Assembly (NCBI GenBank): GCA_020061125.1
Contig: JAGUYV010000496.1
Span: forward strand, 1 to 7,067
Direction: 5' to 3'
Source of the DNA: a bacterium
Lineage (GTDB): Bacteria; UBP15; UBA6099; DSWB01
DNA length: 7,067 nt
A program made the translations under genes and the position numbers. Position 1 is the first letter of the stretch. Each line of letters starts with the position of its first letter. Below, one piece after another: positions 699-6,865 of the stretch. The notes under the pieces are model-generated. The model worked only from the letters and a program-made list of their open reading frames with translations, had not been told where the DNA came from and ran no database searches.

Positions 699-2519
699 TT
701 ATTGCGCGCCGGTCTTTGACCGGGCAGAATGAGCCGCAACATATTGCGGGTCCGGGGGGCCGAAGTAGCCGAGTTCGTAGGCTTTGTCCAGCACCTGGCG
801 GGCGACTGGCAGCGCGGCCGCGGCGCCGAAACCGCCGTGTTCCACATACACCGCCCAGGCGATGACCGGTTCGCTTCCGTACGGGGCGAAGCCCGAGAAC
901 CAGGCATGGTCGGGCTTGGGCTGCTTGCGCGTGCCGGTCTGCGCCGTGCCGGTCTTGGCGGCCACGGGCACCGGAAAGTCGCTCATGCGCCGACAGGTGC
1001 CGTTGAGAACCGCGTCTCGCATGCCCGCGGTGACCGCGTCAATGGTCTCTTTGGACAGGGGCAGGCGATTGCCTTTCCACTCTCCGCGGCGCGCAACATG
1101 CGGCGTCTGCAGGATGCCTCCCGATGCGAACACGCTGATCATGCGCGCCACCTGCACGGGCGTTATCTGCACATCGCCCTGGCCGATGCTCAAATTGATT
1201 GTGTCGCCGGCGTTCCACTCCCGGCCTCCGCCAAACCGCCTTTTCCACTCGTCGTCGGGAATGAGTCCAACGGACTCGCCGGGCAGATCAATGCCCGTTT
1301 TGGTTCCCAGACCCATCATTTTAGCATACTTGGCAATATTTGTAACGCCAAGCTTTTGCCCGAGAATGTAAAACACAACATCACAGGACGCCCCGATTCC
1401 GTGCGTGAATCCGATGCCGCCGTGGGAGGTGTAGCATTTGGGCGGGTAGCTCTGGCGGCCGGGCACAACGAAGTAGCCCGGGCAGTGGAACACGGACTGC
1501 GGAGTGGCGATGCCTTCCTGGAGCGCGGCGGACGCCACCACGAGCTTGAACACGGAGCCGAGGGGCAGATGGCTGGAAATGGCGCGGTTCACCAGCGGGT
1601 GATCCTCGTGCATGGCCAGCGCGGCCCAGTTCATGGGGGTGAGCCGGTCGGGTCCAGGCTCCTGTGAGAACGAGGGGCTTGTGACTACGGCCAAAATTTC
1701 CCCGGTGCGCGGGTCCATGAAGATCGCGCCGCCCTTTTTGCCATTGTCCACGAACGCGCGGTAGCCCTCGCGCTGCAGGCGCATGTCAATGGAGAGCGTG
1801 AGATCCTCGCCGCGCTCGGGATACGATACCGCGCGGTCCGTGACATAGTTGCCCGCGGCGTTGATCATGTACTCGCGCCGGCCGCGCTTGCCACTTAACG
1901 ATAATTCGTATGCGCGCTCTACACCGGATTTGCCGATGCGATCTCCAAGATTGTAGCCCGCGTGCGAATACCGGCCTATCTCGCTGCCGGAAATTTCGCC
2001 CAGGTAGCCCAGCACATGGGACACGCTCTCGCCCTGCGGGTAAATGCGGCGCGGCACGGGCTGCACCAGCACCTGTGGATCATCCTGACGCCGGGCCAGA
2101 AACCGGGAAATCTGTATAAAACGCTGCGCTTCCGCGCGCCGCCTGCCGTTCGGACCCAGGCCCGACCATTCCGCATGGCTCATGCCCTTGATCGGATCCC
2201 CGCCCGGCAGGTCCATTTCCTCCCAGTAACAGTTGCGCCTGATGCGCAGCACGCGGAAATCCGTGTTGTCCGTGGCCAGCAGCACCCCGTTCCGGTCGCG
2301 GACATCGCCGCGCACCGGCGGGTCGAACACCGTGCACGCCATGTTGCGGTCCGCCTCGGCGCGGTGGCTTCTGGCGTCGTTCAACTGAATGCGCGCCAGA
2401 GCCATGGCCACGAGAACGAGAACCCCGGCCGTGGGCACGAACAGCATGGCCATGCGCATGGCGCTCACGCGTCGCGCACGGATGTCCACGAGGCTTCTCA
2501 ACAGGCGGAATTTCGTCAT
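699..2519 (-). CDS. mrdA: Penicillin-binding protein 2, elongasome transpeptidase
   Basis: This is a class B penicillin-binding protein (PBP2/MrdA), the transpeptidase that cross-links peptidoglycan during sidewall growth. It has 606 residues, normal for the family. A short basic cytoplasmic tail precedes one membrane anchor (about 21-43), followed by a pedestal/dimerisation domain (about 60-235) and the transpeptidase domain. All three catalytic motifs are visible: SVFK with nucleophile Ser322, SCD at 378-380 (the SxD form seen in PBP2, as opposed to SxN in PBP3), and KTGTAQ starting at 522. The ATG at 2519 overlaps the mreD stop as ATGA. The reading frame is open further upstream to 2621, but that part lies inside mreD and reads as out-of-frame mreD sequence, so I rejected it. 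No good Shine-Dalgarno is visible, which fits translational coupling to mreD. The partner glycosyltransferase rodA, often next in such operons, is absent here. Confidence 0.95.
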   Translation of the reverse strand: MTKFRLLRSLVDIRARRVSAMRMAMLFVPTAGVLVLVAMALARIQLNDARSHRAEADRNMACTVFDPPVRGDVRDRNGVLLATDNTDFRVLRIRRNCYWEEMDLPGGDPIKGMSHAEWSGLGPNGRRRAEAQRFIQISRFLARRQDDPQVLVQPVPRRIYPQGESVSHVLGYLGEISGSEIGRYSHAGYNLGDRIGKSGVERAYELSLSGKRGRREYMINAAGNYVTDRAVSYPERGEDLTLSIDMRLQREGYRAFVDNGKKGGAIFMDPRTGEILAVVTSPSFSQEPGPDRLTPMNWAALAMHEDHPLVNRAISSHLPLGSVFKLVVASAALQEGIATPQSVFHCPGYFVVPGRQSYPPKCYTSHGGIGFTHGIGASCDVVFYILGQKLGVTNIAKYAKMMGLGTKTGIDLPGESVGLIPDDEWKRRFGGGREWNAGDTINLSIGQGDVQITPVQVARMISVFASGGILQTPHVARRGEWKGNRLPLSKETIDAVTAGMRDAVLNGTCRRMSDFPVPVAAKTGTAQTGTRKQPKPDHAWFSGFAPYGSEPVIAWAVYVEHGGFGAAAALPVARQVLDKAYELGYFGPPDPQYVAAHSARSKTGAQ

Positions 2520-3007
2520 GCACGGTATACCGAAAACTTTTTCTTTCTCATGGGCCACAGGGCCAGGATCACGCATCCGGCCGCGGCGTTCATGCCCGCG
2601 GCTCGCGCCCACGAAACCCACTCGAAATCATGCCATGTCCAGGGATACAGCGCGCACGCATACAGCGCGAAATGCGCCGCTGCAAGCAGAGCGGCCTGCG
2701 CGGCGATGTGGAACACGGAACGCGGAGAATAGAAATGCCGCGACACGAACAGCCCCGCGGCCGCGTATGCAGCAAACACCGGAAGGTGCACGGGCAGCGC
2801 GGACCCCGTGTCCAGAACAAGCCCGCTCACAAGCGCCGCAGCCACGGCATTGGCCGGACCAAGATACGCCACCGCCGCGGCCACGGGGAACAGGCCGAAC
2901 TCGAACACCCGCGCGCTCTGCGCGACGCCCGGAAACGGCGCATACTCCAGCAGCGCGCAGCACACGCACAGAAGCACAATCCATAGAACGGGCGGTTTTG
3001 CGTTCAT
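2516..3007 (-). CDS. mreD: Rod shape-determining protein MreD
   Basis: MreD is the polytopic inner-membrane component of the elongasome, acting with MreC to couple MreB to cell-wall synthesis. The 163-residue product is almost wholly hydrophobic, with about five to six likely spans (roughly 7-24, 35-50, 52-67, 75-90, 98-120, 133-151), and ends in a basic cytoplasmic tail, RKKKFSVYRA. The sequence itself is poorly conserved, as is usual for MreD. A stretch around VSGLVLDTGSALPVHLPVFA (60-79) matches the family's usual position for a G-x-x-x-D-region loop. The assignment rests mainly on size, topology and position between mreC and mrdA. The ATG at 3007 overlaps the mreC stop (ATGA), and the gene's own stop overlaps the mrdA start in the same way. 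No strong Shine-Dalgarno precedes it. Confidence 0.88.
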   Translation of the reverse strand: MNAKPPVLWIVLLCVCCALLEYAPFPGVAQSARVFEFGLFPVAAAVAYLGPANAVAAALVSGLVLDTGSALPVHLPVFAAYAAAGLFVSRHFYSPRSVFHIAAQAALLAAAHFALYACALYPWTWHDFEWVSWARAAGMNAAAGCVILALWPMRKKKFSVYRA

Positions 3008-3792
3008 TGGCTGGACAACAGCAGGTACTCAAGATTTTTGAAATCGGCGTACGGCTTTACTGAAAATCCCTGGTCCGCGTGCGCGCCGGATTTTGCCCTG
3101 CCGGACACTTTTCCAAGGGGCAAACCACGGGGATAATGCCCGCCGTAACCGGAAGTGACCACAAGATCCCCCCGGCGCGCGGTGCGTGAAGAGGACACCA
3201 CCAGAATGTCCAGGCCGCGCGCGCCTGCGCCATAAGCCATGCAAAAGAAATCCGCTTCCTCGGCGGTCTTTGTGGCGCCCGATGCGGGGTGAATCACGCA
3301 GGTTGTGGCCGAGTCCGGATCCACAATGAGTCGCACCGTGCAGGTCGTGGCTGCGCACCGTGTGACCCGGCCCGCCACGCCGGACTCCGTGCTGGCGATC
3401 CAGCCCGCCTTGACCCCCTGGCTTGCGCCCGCGTCCACCACAACGCTGTGGTGCCATGCCGACGGGTCCCGCATGGTTACCCGCGCCACAACCGCGCCCG
3501 GCGCGGGCCGCACGGCCTTGATGAACCCGAGCCGGCGAATCTCCTGCTTCAGATGCTGGTTCTCGCGCAACAGGCGCATGGCGCGCTCACGGTCCCGCGC
3601 GGCCTGTATTTTAAGTTCCTCTTTGTCTCCGTATGGCAGTAGGGTGTGCTCCACGGCGCGGCCGGCGAGGCCCGCGACAAGGGCTGTGGCCTGCTCGAAC
3701 CCGCTGCGCCACGGGCCGATGCGCACCAGCGACATGGCCGCGGCAATCAGGATTAAAATGCCCAGGGTTTTGAGCCGGTTGTTGCGTCTCAT
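3004..3792 (-). CDS. mreC: Rod shape-determining protein MreC
   Basis: MreC is a bitopic periplasmic scaffold that binds PBP2 and MreD and helps activate the elongasome. The 262 residues are laid out as in the family. A basic N-terminus (MRRNNR) is followed by one membrane helix (about 8-24), then a coiled-coil segment rich in E, R, L and K (about 56-88), then the paired beta-barrel domains. Typical stretches are ARVTMRDPSAWHHSVVVDAG (103-122), GVAGRV (138-143) and the C-terminal VVTSGYGGHYPRGLPLGKVS (211-230). The ATG at 3792 overlaps the mreB stop as ATGA and has GGAG 6 bases upstream, so I chose it over an open extension to 3906 that lies inside mreB. The protein is slightly shorter than the E. 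coli one (367 residues, from memory), lacking its low-complexity C-terminal tail. Confidence 0.94.
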   Translation of the reverse strand: MRRNNRLKTLGILILIAAAMSLVRIGPWRSGFEQATALVAGLAGRAVEHTLLPYGDKEELKIQAARDRERAMRLLRENQHLKQEIRRLGFIKAVRPAPGAVVARVTMRDPSAWHHSVVVDAGASQGVKAGWIASTESGVAGRVTRCAATTCTVRLIVDPDSATTCVIHPASGATKTAEEADFFCMAYGAGARGLDILVVSSSRTARRGDLVVTSGYGGHYPRGLPLGKVSGRAKSGAHADQGFSVKPYADFKNLEYLLLSSQ

Positions 3793-4841
3793 GTCAGGCT
3801 CCGGCCATGGCGCGAACACAGGAACCGGCGGTGGCGCTTGAGATCGCCAACCACCTTTTCCGCGCCCGCAAGGCACGCCAGCGCGCTGCGCCGCGGCACC
3901 GTGCACTCCACGCCCGTGACATTCTCCACCAGCTTGTTCATCCCGCGCAGCATGGCCGTGCCCCCGGACAGCGTGATCCCATACTTCTTGACATCCTCGG
4001 ACAACTCCGGGGGAATGCGCTCGAGCACGGCTTTGACCGAACTCACGATTCTCTCGATGGGGGACAGGAGCATCTCCCGGATTTCCCAGTTGGACACAAA
4101 CACGGCCTTGGGCAGCCCGTCCATTACATCCTTGCCGTACACCTCGCGCGCCTCGTCCTTTTCCACGGGGAACGCGTTCCCGAGCGTGGTCTTTATCTGC
4201 TCAATGGTCTGGTGTCCCACCTGCACGCCGTATTTTTTGCGCACGCCAGACGCGATGGATTCGTTCAAATCCTGGCCGCCCACGCGCACGCAGTGCGTGG
4301 CCACGATTTCGCCGCCCGCGAACACCGCGGCCTGCGTTGTTCCGCCGCCCAGGCACACGCTCACCGCGCCGCGCCGTTTTTCAAGCGGCAGGTTCAGCCC
4401 CAGGGCCGCGGCCACAGGCGCTTCCAGCAAAAAAATTTCGCGCGCTCCCGCCTGTATGGCCAGGTCCTCGAACGCTTTAATCTCCACATCCGTGGCCCCG
4501 GACGGGACCACCATCACGATGCGCGCGCCGAACAGCGCCCGTGTGCGGAACAGCCCGCTCATGAACTGGCGCAGCATCAGCTCGGCCAGATCGAAATCGT
4601 TGACCACGCCCTGGCGCATGGGATACGCGACTTCCACATGCGGTGGGCACCGGCCAAGCAGCTTGAACGCTTCCGCGCCCACGCACACCAGATCTCCCGT
4701 GCGGTGCGACACCGCGATGCACGACGGCTCGTTCAACTCCACGCCCCGGCCCCCGCGCATGTATATCCTCGTGGCTGTGGTTCCCATGTCCAGGGCCAGG
4801 TTTATGGTAATCAGGCTTTTGACCGAGTGTATGATCTGCAT
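3789..4841 (-). CDS. mreB: MreB-like actin homologue with altered ATPase residues
   Basis: This is an actin-fold protein of the MreB family, whose members form membrane-bound filaments that guide cell-wall synthesis. The 350 residues align colinearly with E. coli MreB: phosphate-1 loop LALDMGTTATRIY (15-27), LNEPS (36-40), VPSGATDVE (112-120), phosphate-2 loop LGGGTTQAAV (164-173), VRVGGQDLNE (185-194) and adenosine loop LSGGTAMLRG (291-300). Residues 102-104 (ALF) fit the hydrophobic membrane-insertion loop. Two catalytic positions differ. Ala141 in LEAPVAAA stands where MreB has Glu in EEPMAAA, and Cys163 stands where it has Asp (VDIGGGTT). The protein ends in a basic tail, KRHRRFLCSRHGRSLT. 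The ATG at 4841 follows AGAGGG by only 3 bases and lies 7 bp after the maf stop. Operon position supports an elongasome role. It may bind ATP but hydrolyse it slowly or not at all. Confidence 0.9.
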   Translation of the reverse strand: MQIIHSVKSLITINLALDMGTTATRIYMRGGRGVELNEPSCIAVSHRTGDLVCVGAEAFKLLGRCPPHVEVAYPMRQGVVNDFDLAELMLRQFMSGLFRTRALFGARIVMVVPSGATDVEIKAFEDLAIQAGAREIFLLEAPVAAALGLNLPLEKRRGAVSVCLGGGTTQAAVFAGGEIVATHCVRVGGQDLNESIASGVRKKYGVQVGHQTIEQIKTTLGNAFPVEKDEAREVYGKDVMDGLPKAVFVSNWEIREMLLSPIERIVSSVKAVLERIPPELSEDVKKYGITLSGGTAMLRGMNKLVENVTGVECTVPRRSALACLAGAEKVVGDLKRHRRFLCSRHGRSLT

Positions 4842-4848
4842 GAACCCT

Positions 4849-5469
4849 CTACCAGTTTTGCGTTACATCGAAATCGAAATCCTGCTTGAGCGCCGCGGCC
4901 AGGCGCGCCAGGGGCAGCCCCACCACATTGGAGTAGCACCCGCGCACCTCGGACACAAACGCCCCGGCCAGGCCCTGGATGCCGTAGGCGCCGGCCTTGT
5001 CAAGGGGATGCCCGCTGTGCGCGTAGCGCGCGATTTCCCCATGGTCCAGCGTGCGGAACACCACGGCCGTGCGCTCGTGGAACACGCGGCGGCGGCCCGT
5101 GTCCGTGTCCTGCAGGGCCACGCCCGTTATGACCGCATGTTCCGCGCCGCTCAACGCGTGCAGCATGCGCTCCGCGTGAGCCGCGTCCGCGGGTTTTCCC
5201 AGAATCGAACCGCCGGGCGCCACCACAATAGTGTCCGCGCAAAGAACGACCGCGTTGCCGGGTGCAAGCGCAATGGCCGCGTCGAGTTTGGCTTCCGCCA
5301 GTCGTTCGGCCAGTTGATCAGGCGCCAGCCCCCGGTCGCAGACTTCCGCTTCGACATCATCGCTGGGCGTCGCAAGCGTCTCGAACCGCACGCGCATCTG
5401 CTCCAGCAGGCGCGCACGCCGGGGCGACTGCGACGCAAGAATAATCGTTTTCACGCCGCTCTGCTCCAT
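4849..5469 (-). CDS. maf: Maf-family nucleoside triphosphate pyrophosphatase
   Basis: Maf proteins hydrolyse nucleoside triphosphates to the monophosphate and pyrophosphate; the YhdE-type members prefer dTTP/UTP, and a link to septum inhibition was reported in Bacillus. The 206-residue product has all the family landmarks: IILASQSPRR (9-18), CADTIV (77-82, with the catalytic-region Asp79), GKP (91-93), and DKAGAYGIQGLAG (157-169) leading into YSNVVGLPL (179-187). The DKAGAYGIQG form points to the dTTP/UTP type. The ATG at 5469 has no Shine-Dalgarno. The GTG at 5454 has GGAG (5466-5463) 8 bases upstream and would give a start nearer the usual family N-terminus, so it is a real alternative. maf next to mreB is a known association in several bacteria. 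It appears to be the first gene of the operon. Confidence 0.93.
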   Translation of the reverse strand: MEQSGVKTIILASQSPRRARLLEQMRVRFETLATPSDDVEAEVCDRGLAPDQLAERLAEAKLDAAIALAPGNAVVLCADTIVVAPGGSILGKPADAAHAERMLHALSGAEHAVITGVALQDTDTGRRRVFHERTAVVFRTLDHGEIARYAHSGHPLDKAGAYGIQGLAGAFVSEVRGCYSNVVGLPLARLAAALKQDFDFDVTQNW

Positions 5470-6137: not shown

Positions 6138-6797
6138 TTATCCGAGCACGGCTTTTTTGACTTCGTCTATGCCCACTCGGTTGAGGAATTTTGCGGTGCG
6201 CTCTTTGGGCTTTGCGTTGCTTTTGTAGAAATCAAAATATTTCCGCGCCAGGGCCACGACCTGATCGTCGGAGACATCCTCGGCGATGATGTCTCCGATG
6301 CGGGGTTTGGCGCCCGCGTTGCCGCCCACGGTCACGGTCCAGCCTTTTTTCTTGCCGAAGCAACCGAAGTCGCGCATAAAACTTTCTCCGCAGTTCATGG
6401 GGCAGCCGCTGACGCCGATTTTGGCTTTGGCCGGAAGGTCCATGCCCGTGAACTCCTTGTCGAGCCGCGCGCCCATGCCGAGCGAGTCCTGCTGCCCGAA
6501 ACGGCACACCTCCGTGCCGGGGCACGCCTGAACATAGTGCATGCACGGCTCCACGGCGCGGCCCACTTCCAGGCCCAGCTCTTTCCACACTTCGGGCACA
6601 TCCTGCGGCTCGATGCCGACCAGGGCGATGCGTTGCGCGGATGTGAGTTTCAATATCGGAATGTTGAATTTGCGCGCCGCGCGCGCAATGCTTTCCAGCG
6701 CATCGGGCGTCACCAGCCCAAGGGGCGTGCGCGCCACAATGGCGTAGGTTTTCTGGTCCCGCTGCAGAATTGCTCCGTCCAGTTCCGGTTCGCTCAT
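6138..6797 (-). CDS. Small siroheme/[4Fe-4S] nitrite/sulfite reductase-type protein
   Basis: The 219-residue product is a single-unit member of the nitrite/sulfite reductase hemoprotein family. A ferredoxin-like half domain (about 15-75) includes TPLGLVTPDALESIARAARK and is followed by the siroheme/iron-sulfur domain. The cluster ligands are intact as C-x5-C and C-x3-C: Cys92 and Cys98 in ACPGTEVCRFG, Cys132 and Cys136 in GCPMNCGES. The size and layout match the low-spin assimilatory-type sulfite reductase described from Desulfovibrio vulgaris (about 220 residues), also found in other anaerobes. Catalysis in vivo, with sulfite or nitrite, and the electron donor cannot be told from sequence. 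The ATG at 6797 has GGGGGAG 8 bases upstream. The frame is open to 6863, but that extension has no ribosome site and reads unlike the family. No partner reductase or siroheme synthase gene is adjacent, and it appears to be transcribed alone. Confidence 0.88.
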   Translation of the reverse strand: MSEPELDGAILQRDQKTYAIVARTPLGLVTPDALESIARAARKFNIPILKLTSAQRIALVGIEPQDVPEVWKELGLEVGRAVEPCMHYVQACPGTEVCRFGQQDSLGMGARLDKEFTGMDLPAKAKIGVSGCPMNCGESFMRDFGCFGKKKGWTVTVGGNAGAKPRIGDIIAEDVSDDQVVALARKYFDFYKSNAKPKERTAKFLNRVGIDEVKKAVLG

Positions 6798-6865
6798 GAT
6801 GAATTCTCCCCCGTGACTCTCCGGCGTTGAAAGCCGTCGCCTCGCTGAATGCGCTGCTGCCAAAT

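Follow-up and report, generated by a model that had tools for sequence, protein, structure and literature searches.

In Caulobacter MreB (CcMreB), the gamma phosphate is attacked by a water that E140 and T167 keep in place (PMC4051119), and E169 has been proposed to activate T167. Of 4832 MreBs from outside Spiroplasma, 95.8% contain the corresponding E...T-X-[D/E] motif; actin carries Q137 and H161 at the positions of E140 and E169 (PMC9597168). In ScMreB5, Asp12, Glu134, and Asp156 hold the water shell of Mg, and mutants at D12, D70, E134, D156, and T161 showed lowered ATPase activity; ordinary phosphate release, according to E. coli and Thermotoga values quoted in the same paper, is ~0.1–0.2 per min (PMC9195046).

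The Asp of the second phosphate loop has been exchanged in laboratory mutants. E. coli D165A, D165E, and D165V were non-functional and cells making them were not viable; a constructed mutant in this residue is cited as still circling the cell at near-wild-type speeds (PMC3599482). In insect cells, B. subtilis D158A assembled into filaments whose exchange was much slower (PMC3206058); in B. subtilis, 11% of its molecules were found in the slow, filament-like fraction, compared to 69% for the wild-type (PMC11279060). Among natural proteins, SpeMreB3 of Spiroplasma lacks the E...T-X-[D/E] motif and releases Pi slowly (PMC9597168). A literature search for a non-hydrolysing MreB in a walled phylum found none.

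The protein analysed here comes from an uncultured bacterium of the candidate phylum UBP15, for which PMC11382960 gives the name Candidatus Lagoxiota and six genomes. An earlier note on its gene had pointed out the loss of two hydrolysis-linked residues, and proposed either a slow or non-hydrolysing filament or dependence on a second MreB elsewhere in the genome.

The mre operon and identity of MreB1

The window, i.e., the whole stretch of DNA analysed, comprises 7067 bases and is the entire contig C148 of a metagenome-assembled genome (MAG) of 4.1 Mb in 513 contigs, 79% complete. A run of minus-strand genes consists of maf, mreB, mreC, mreD, mrdA/PBP2, secG, and the 5' start of a nicotinate phosphoribosyltransferase gene (NAPRT). 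The genes around mreB are:

4849..5469, minus strand: maf, upstream of mreB; TIGR00172 above cut-off
3789..4841, minus strand: mreB (product termed MreB1), ATG start, 350 amino acids; assigned by MreB-family profiles and a structural model
3004..3792, minus strand: mreC, assigned by mreC family matches; its ATG at 3792 overlaps the mreB stop (ATGA)
2516..3007, minus strand: mreD-like, 163 amino acids; assigned by position and ATGA overlap with mreC
699..2519, minus strand: mrdA/PBP2; TIGR03423 above cut-off; ATGA overlap with mreD

In three consecutive ATGA overlaps, the stops of mreB, mreC, and mreD each share bases with the next start, so that mreB, mreC, mreD, and mrdA look like one coupled operon. 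The mreD-like frame has diverged too far to give a Pfam or NCBIfam match and is identified mainly by its place in the operon, together with a weak tblastn match at the equivalent place in one relative. With mreD taken in this way, the genes form an mreBCD operon with an elongation transpeptidase (the earlier note had spoken of the canonical mre operon), and the catalytic motifs of PBP2 (SxxK, SxD, and KTG, here SVFK, SCD, and KTGT) are all intact. The order mreB-mreC-...-PBP2-secG-NAPRT was conserved in five relatives from the same phylum, and the contig of the sixth breaks inside mreB; maf also lies 5' of mreB in relatives G001 and G005. Elsewhere in the window, positions 6138–6863 (minus strand) encode a stand-alone siroheme nitrite/sulfite reductase-like protein of 241 amino acids that matches the C-terminal part of NirB-type enzymes.

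A RodA-family match was found in all seven UBP15 genomes. The RodZ profile PF13413 gave weak matches in these genomes, and the one inspected, in the window's genome, was an XRE-cupin regulator. RodZ profile PF13464, which fails to match the Thermotoga and Caulobacter controls as well, and the bactofilin profile PF04519 had no match in the seven genomes.

MreB1 matched PF06723 (MreB_Mbl) with 315 bits (cut-off 27, E 4.8e-94) and NF010539 with 313 (cut-off 293). PRK13927 (MreB) was likewise above its cut-off, and TIGR00904 stayed under it (292.7; cut-off 365.75). An AlphaFold (AF2) model was computed from a 13-sequence alignment of seven close sequences and six MreB sequences from viral contigs (pLDDT 85.5, pTM 0.84). 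It matched the crystal structures of Thermotoga and Caulobacter MreB with Z 41–43 and rmsd 1.7–2.0 at 37–39% identity; against 1jcf, which has the actin/MreB fold, Z was 42.8 and rmsd 1.8 over 333 residues. The window protein is thus a genuine, operon-borne MreB. With the canonical MreBs of E. coli, Caulobacter, and Thermotoga it shares the operon context, a gap-free alignment of the active site, the predicted fold, the interface Val, and adenine-pocket residues; it differs in that E143, D165, E172, and D78 (E. coli numbering) are all replaced and the GGG of the adenosine loop has become GGT.

Active-site residues of MreB1 and their distribution

The reference was E. coli MreB from the K-12 record NC_000913.3, which reads IEEPMA around residue 143 and VVDIGGGTTE around residue 165. 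As the earlier note had read them, the codons of MreB1 give Glu-Ala-Pro at residues 140–142 and Val-Cys-Leu-Gly-Gly-Gly at 162–167. The correspondence to EEP and DIGGG holds as well: the alignment with E. coli, Thermotoga (1jce), and Caulobacter (4cze) MreB is free of gaps in this region and keeps the spacing of 22 residues. The residues concerned are:

4788..4790, minus strand: D18, phosphate-1 Asp, kept; invariant among all MreBs compared
4611..4613, minus strand: Q77 (CAG) at E. coli D78, taken from its motif position to be equivalent to ScMreB5 D70 and actin H73 (phosphate release; role PMC9195046)
4419..4421, minus strand: A141 (GCG) at the catalytic Glu (E. coli E143, CcMreB E140, ScMreB5 E134), by alignment
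4353..4355, minus strand: C163 (TGC) at the Mg-coordinating Asp (E. coli D165, ScMreB5 D156, B. subtilis D158), by alignment; Tyr in six relatives
4338..4340, minus strand: T168, water-contacting Thr, kept (E. coli T170, CcMreB T167), by alignment
4332..4334, minus strand: Q170 (CAG) in place of the acidic residue in T-X-[D/E] (E. coli E172, CcMreB E169), by alignment; motif role PMC9597168
3951..3968, minus strand: SGGTAM, adenosine loop, residues 292–297; T295 at E. coli G297

Two of these changes, TTE to TTQ (Q170) and RDGVIAD to RQGVVND (Q77; E. coli stretch RPMRDGVIAD), had been missed before. MreB1 therefore reads A141...T168-T-Q170 in place of the E...T-X-[D/E] motif, which is common in MreBs and not required for membership of the family. 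C163 occupies the place of an Asp that all surveyed MreBs have in common, although no formal rule of membership demands it. The altered adenosine loop, also pointed out earlier, is present and is milder than the other changes; where further UBP15 copies cover the position of E. coli G297, they have T or N.

The same replacements were found throughout the phylum. The seven UBP15 genomes are all those of the phylum in the searched collection and represent four genera of one order; the window's genome was placed in this order by genome search, and its six relatives, including UBP15_UBA6099, were found by alignment scan. All are MAGs, 67–97% complete (three at 92–97%), and they include separate assemblies from different sites. 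When the alignment with MreBs of related genomes suggested in the earlier note was made, all seven carried Ala, Cys or Tyr, and Gln at E. coli positions 143, 165, and 172, which rules out chance and sequencing error as the source of these residues. Among 110 MreBs of other lineages, E. coli included, position 165 was Asp in every case and position 143 was Glu in 104, Gln in five, and Ala in one, compared to Ala in 7/7 UBP15 copies. When five sites were scored, each UBP15 copy had lost four, while 98 of the 110 others had lost none, 10 had lost one, and two had lost two.

The five MreBs with Gln, the actin residue, at the catalytic Glu are L010, L017, L099, L113, and L168. The single Ala belongs to the unrelated MreB L027 (G023), which reads VEAPRAAALG and has VIDIGGGTTE intact, a natural loss of one residue outside UBP15. 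These six sequences indicate that loss of Glu143 alone is tolerated elsewhere.

In the tree, the seven UBP15 MreB1 sequences formed one clade with 100/100 support, and the stem leading to it measured 2.69 changes per site. A UBP15 MreB1 profile run against 337 genomes scored 568–708 bits in UBP15 and at best 341 bits in the 330 others, and no UBP15-type MreB was found in viral contigs. Among four related UBP15 species, dN/dS of MreB1 was 0.015–0.030; MreB1 is under strong purifying selection, and the residue losses are a fixed trait of the phylum rather than an oddity of one genome. Invariant across UBP15 MreB1 were the equivalents of E. coli G18, T19, GGG167–169, T214, E216, and K219 and the inter-protofilament Val. 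In the sequence comparison, no acidic residue of the two active-site loops was both UBP15-specific and invariant. Acidic gains at the conserved columns q81, q178, and q328 fall outside these loops in sequence, and the window copy lacks the one at q81. Two DnaKs in the window's MAG have an intact phosphate-2 loop (DLGGGTFD); the change therefore does not extend to all actin-like ATPases encoded there.

A second MreB-family gene beside mlaE, mlaF, and mlaD

A search for a second mreB, also proposed in the earlier note, returned one further MreB-family gene (product termed MreB2) in each of the seven genomes and no canonical copy. MreB2 adjoins mlaE, mlaF, and mlaD, genes of a lipid-transport ABC system, and lies directly upstream of them (L048, positions 8265–12219 of contig C432 in the window's genome; also L042–L047). 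Six contigs carry all four genes; that of L047 ends within mlaF. Both proteins belong to the MreB_Mbl family and lack Glu143. They differ in operon, share 24–29% identity, and MreB2 keeps Asp165, as well as Asp172; its replacements are Cys or Ser for Glu143, Val for Thr170 in 6/7, and Arg for Asp78.

By PF06723 profile and protein searches, MreB1 and MreB2 were the only members of the family proper in the seven UBP15 genomes. Further matches scored far lower; the three inspected in the window's genome were the two DnaKs and a PilM-like protein. Three genomes are 92–97% complete, and chance is an unlikely explanation for the lack of a canonical copy in all seven. Judged by residues, neither UBP15 copy has an ordinary hydrolysis site. 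Of the proposed dependence on a second MreB, the existence of such a gene was borne out, but not its service as a canonical helper ATPase: without the catalytic Glu, and in 6/7 without the Thr, MreB2 would offer no simple rescue of hydrolysis. Its linkage to mlaE, mlaF, and mlaD rather than mreCD suggests a separate job. A literature search for a link between MreB and mlaE found nothing useful. To our knowledge, no actin-like protein has been tied to phospholipid transport before.

Proposed function of MreB1

We consider it probable, at roughly 60%, that MreB1 is an elongasome MreB that binds nucleotide and polymerises, its ATP hydrolysis being very slow or absent. Hydrolysis would have become defective in an ancestor common to the sampled members of the phylum, after which that form of the protein would have been fixed. 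Nucleotide would still be bound in the adenine pocket, and MreB1 would assemble into membrane-attached antiparallel double protofilaments that organise MreC, MreD, PBP2, and RodA. Since hydrolysis would be very slow or absent, the filaments would be long-lived, and their turnover would depend on a process different from the usual attack by a water that Glu positions. Confidence is high for the residues and moderate for the loss of hydrolysis; this loss, retained nucleotide binding, polymerisation, and the role as a static scaffold are what we infer from the sequence. The earlier proposal of a slow or non-hydrolysing filament is strengthened by four changed sites instead of two, their fixation in the phylum, purifying selection, and the analogy to the slow ATPase of SpeMreB3. 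The circling mutant makes slow or absent hydrolysis workable in principle. Against the preferred reading weigh the non-functional D165 variants of E. coli and the fewer filaments of D158A in its own host, which imply that a filament with this change must carry compensations. Moreover, Cys or Tyr can stand in for Asp165 only where Mg or nucleotide is bound in another way, and nucleotide binding itself may be lost.

One rival reading is a rewired active site, in which T168, Q170, and UBP15-specific residues would place water and metal anew and hydrolysis would be retained. Actin works with Q137 and H161, Q170 is invariant in UBP15, D18 and T168 are retained, and five other MreBs have Gln at position 143. 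Residue 143 in UBP15, however, is Ala, which is unable to orient water, and the new acidic residues lie away from the active-site loops in sequence; we regard a rewired site as unlikely. Another possibility is that MreB1 has given up ATP binding and cycling altogether and serves as a nucleotide-free structural adaptor for MreC and PBP2. The Tyr of six copies puts a bulky side chain beside the Mg site, N21 and G297 are changed too, and CcMreB has been crystallised as empty filaments (4cze, 4czi). Invariance of the phosphate-loop glycines, T19, E216, and K219 would be unexpected for an idle pocket, and an adaptor of this kind seems rather improbable.

Labour might instead be split within a heterofilament, with Thr170 supplied by MreB1 and Asp165 and Asp172 by MreB2. 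Both proteins occur in 7/7 genomes under constraint (dN/dS ≤ 0.03), and Spiroplasma MreB isoforms regulate one another (PMC12337190). Yet Glu143 is missing from both and Thr170 from MreB2 in 6/7, MreB2 sits apart from mreCD, and the active site of MreB lies within a single subunit, where complementary losses rebuild no site; we think this arrangement unlikely. Although the contig comes from a fragmented, incomplete MAG, an assembly error, decaying gene, or paralogue remnant was ruled out by the same residues in seven independent assemblies, the lack of internal stops, the low dN/dS, and the intact DLGGGTFD of the two DnaKs in this MAG.

For the preferred reading, a filament with very slow or no hydrolysis, Spiroplasma MreB3 (7e1c) is by analogy the nearest studied precedent. 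Both proteins show a lineage-specific loss of the motif, slow Pi release having been measured in SpeMreB3, which differs in its substitutions (D, K, S). Spiroplasma is wall-less and retains other motif-bearing MreBs, whereas the searches in UBP15 returned no canonical copy, and the genes for wall elongation are retained. Compared to B. subtilis D158A and E. coli D165A, mutants impaired or non-functional through a change at the same Asp as C163, the UBP15 change arose in nature, is fixed, and is accompanied by three others. As MP265 directly contacts Glu140 of CcMreB (PMC4051119), UBP15 MreBs are predicted to respond poorly to A22/MP265.

The need for ATP hydrolysis by MreB in cell shape has been argued mainly from engineered mutants that were impaired or not viable. 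An evolved test of this requirement is offered by a natural lineage whose MreB copies all have a degenerate site and which keeps mreC, PBP2, and RodA. UBP15 MreB suggests a rod-shape scaffold without ordinary ATP hydrolysis. We raise tentatively, as a possibility somewhat short of even odds, that the whole phylum elongates with non-hydrolysing MreB filaments and has no hydrolysis-competent MreB in the genome; if so, hydrolysis would be dispensable for the core role of MreB in walled cells.
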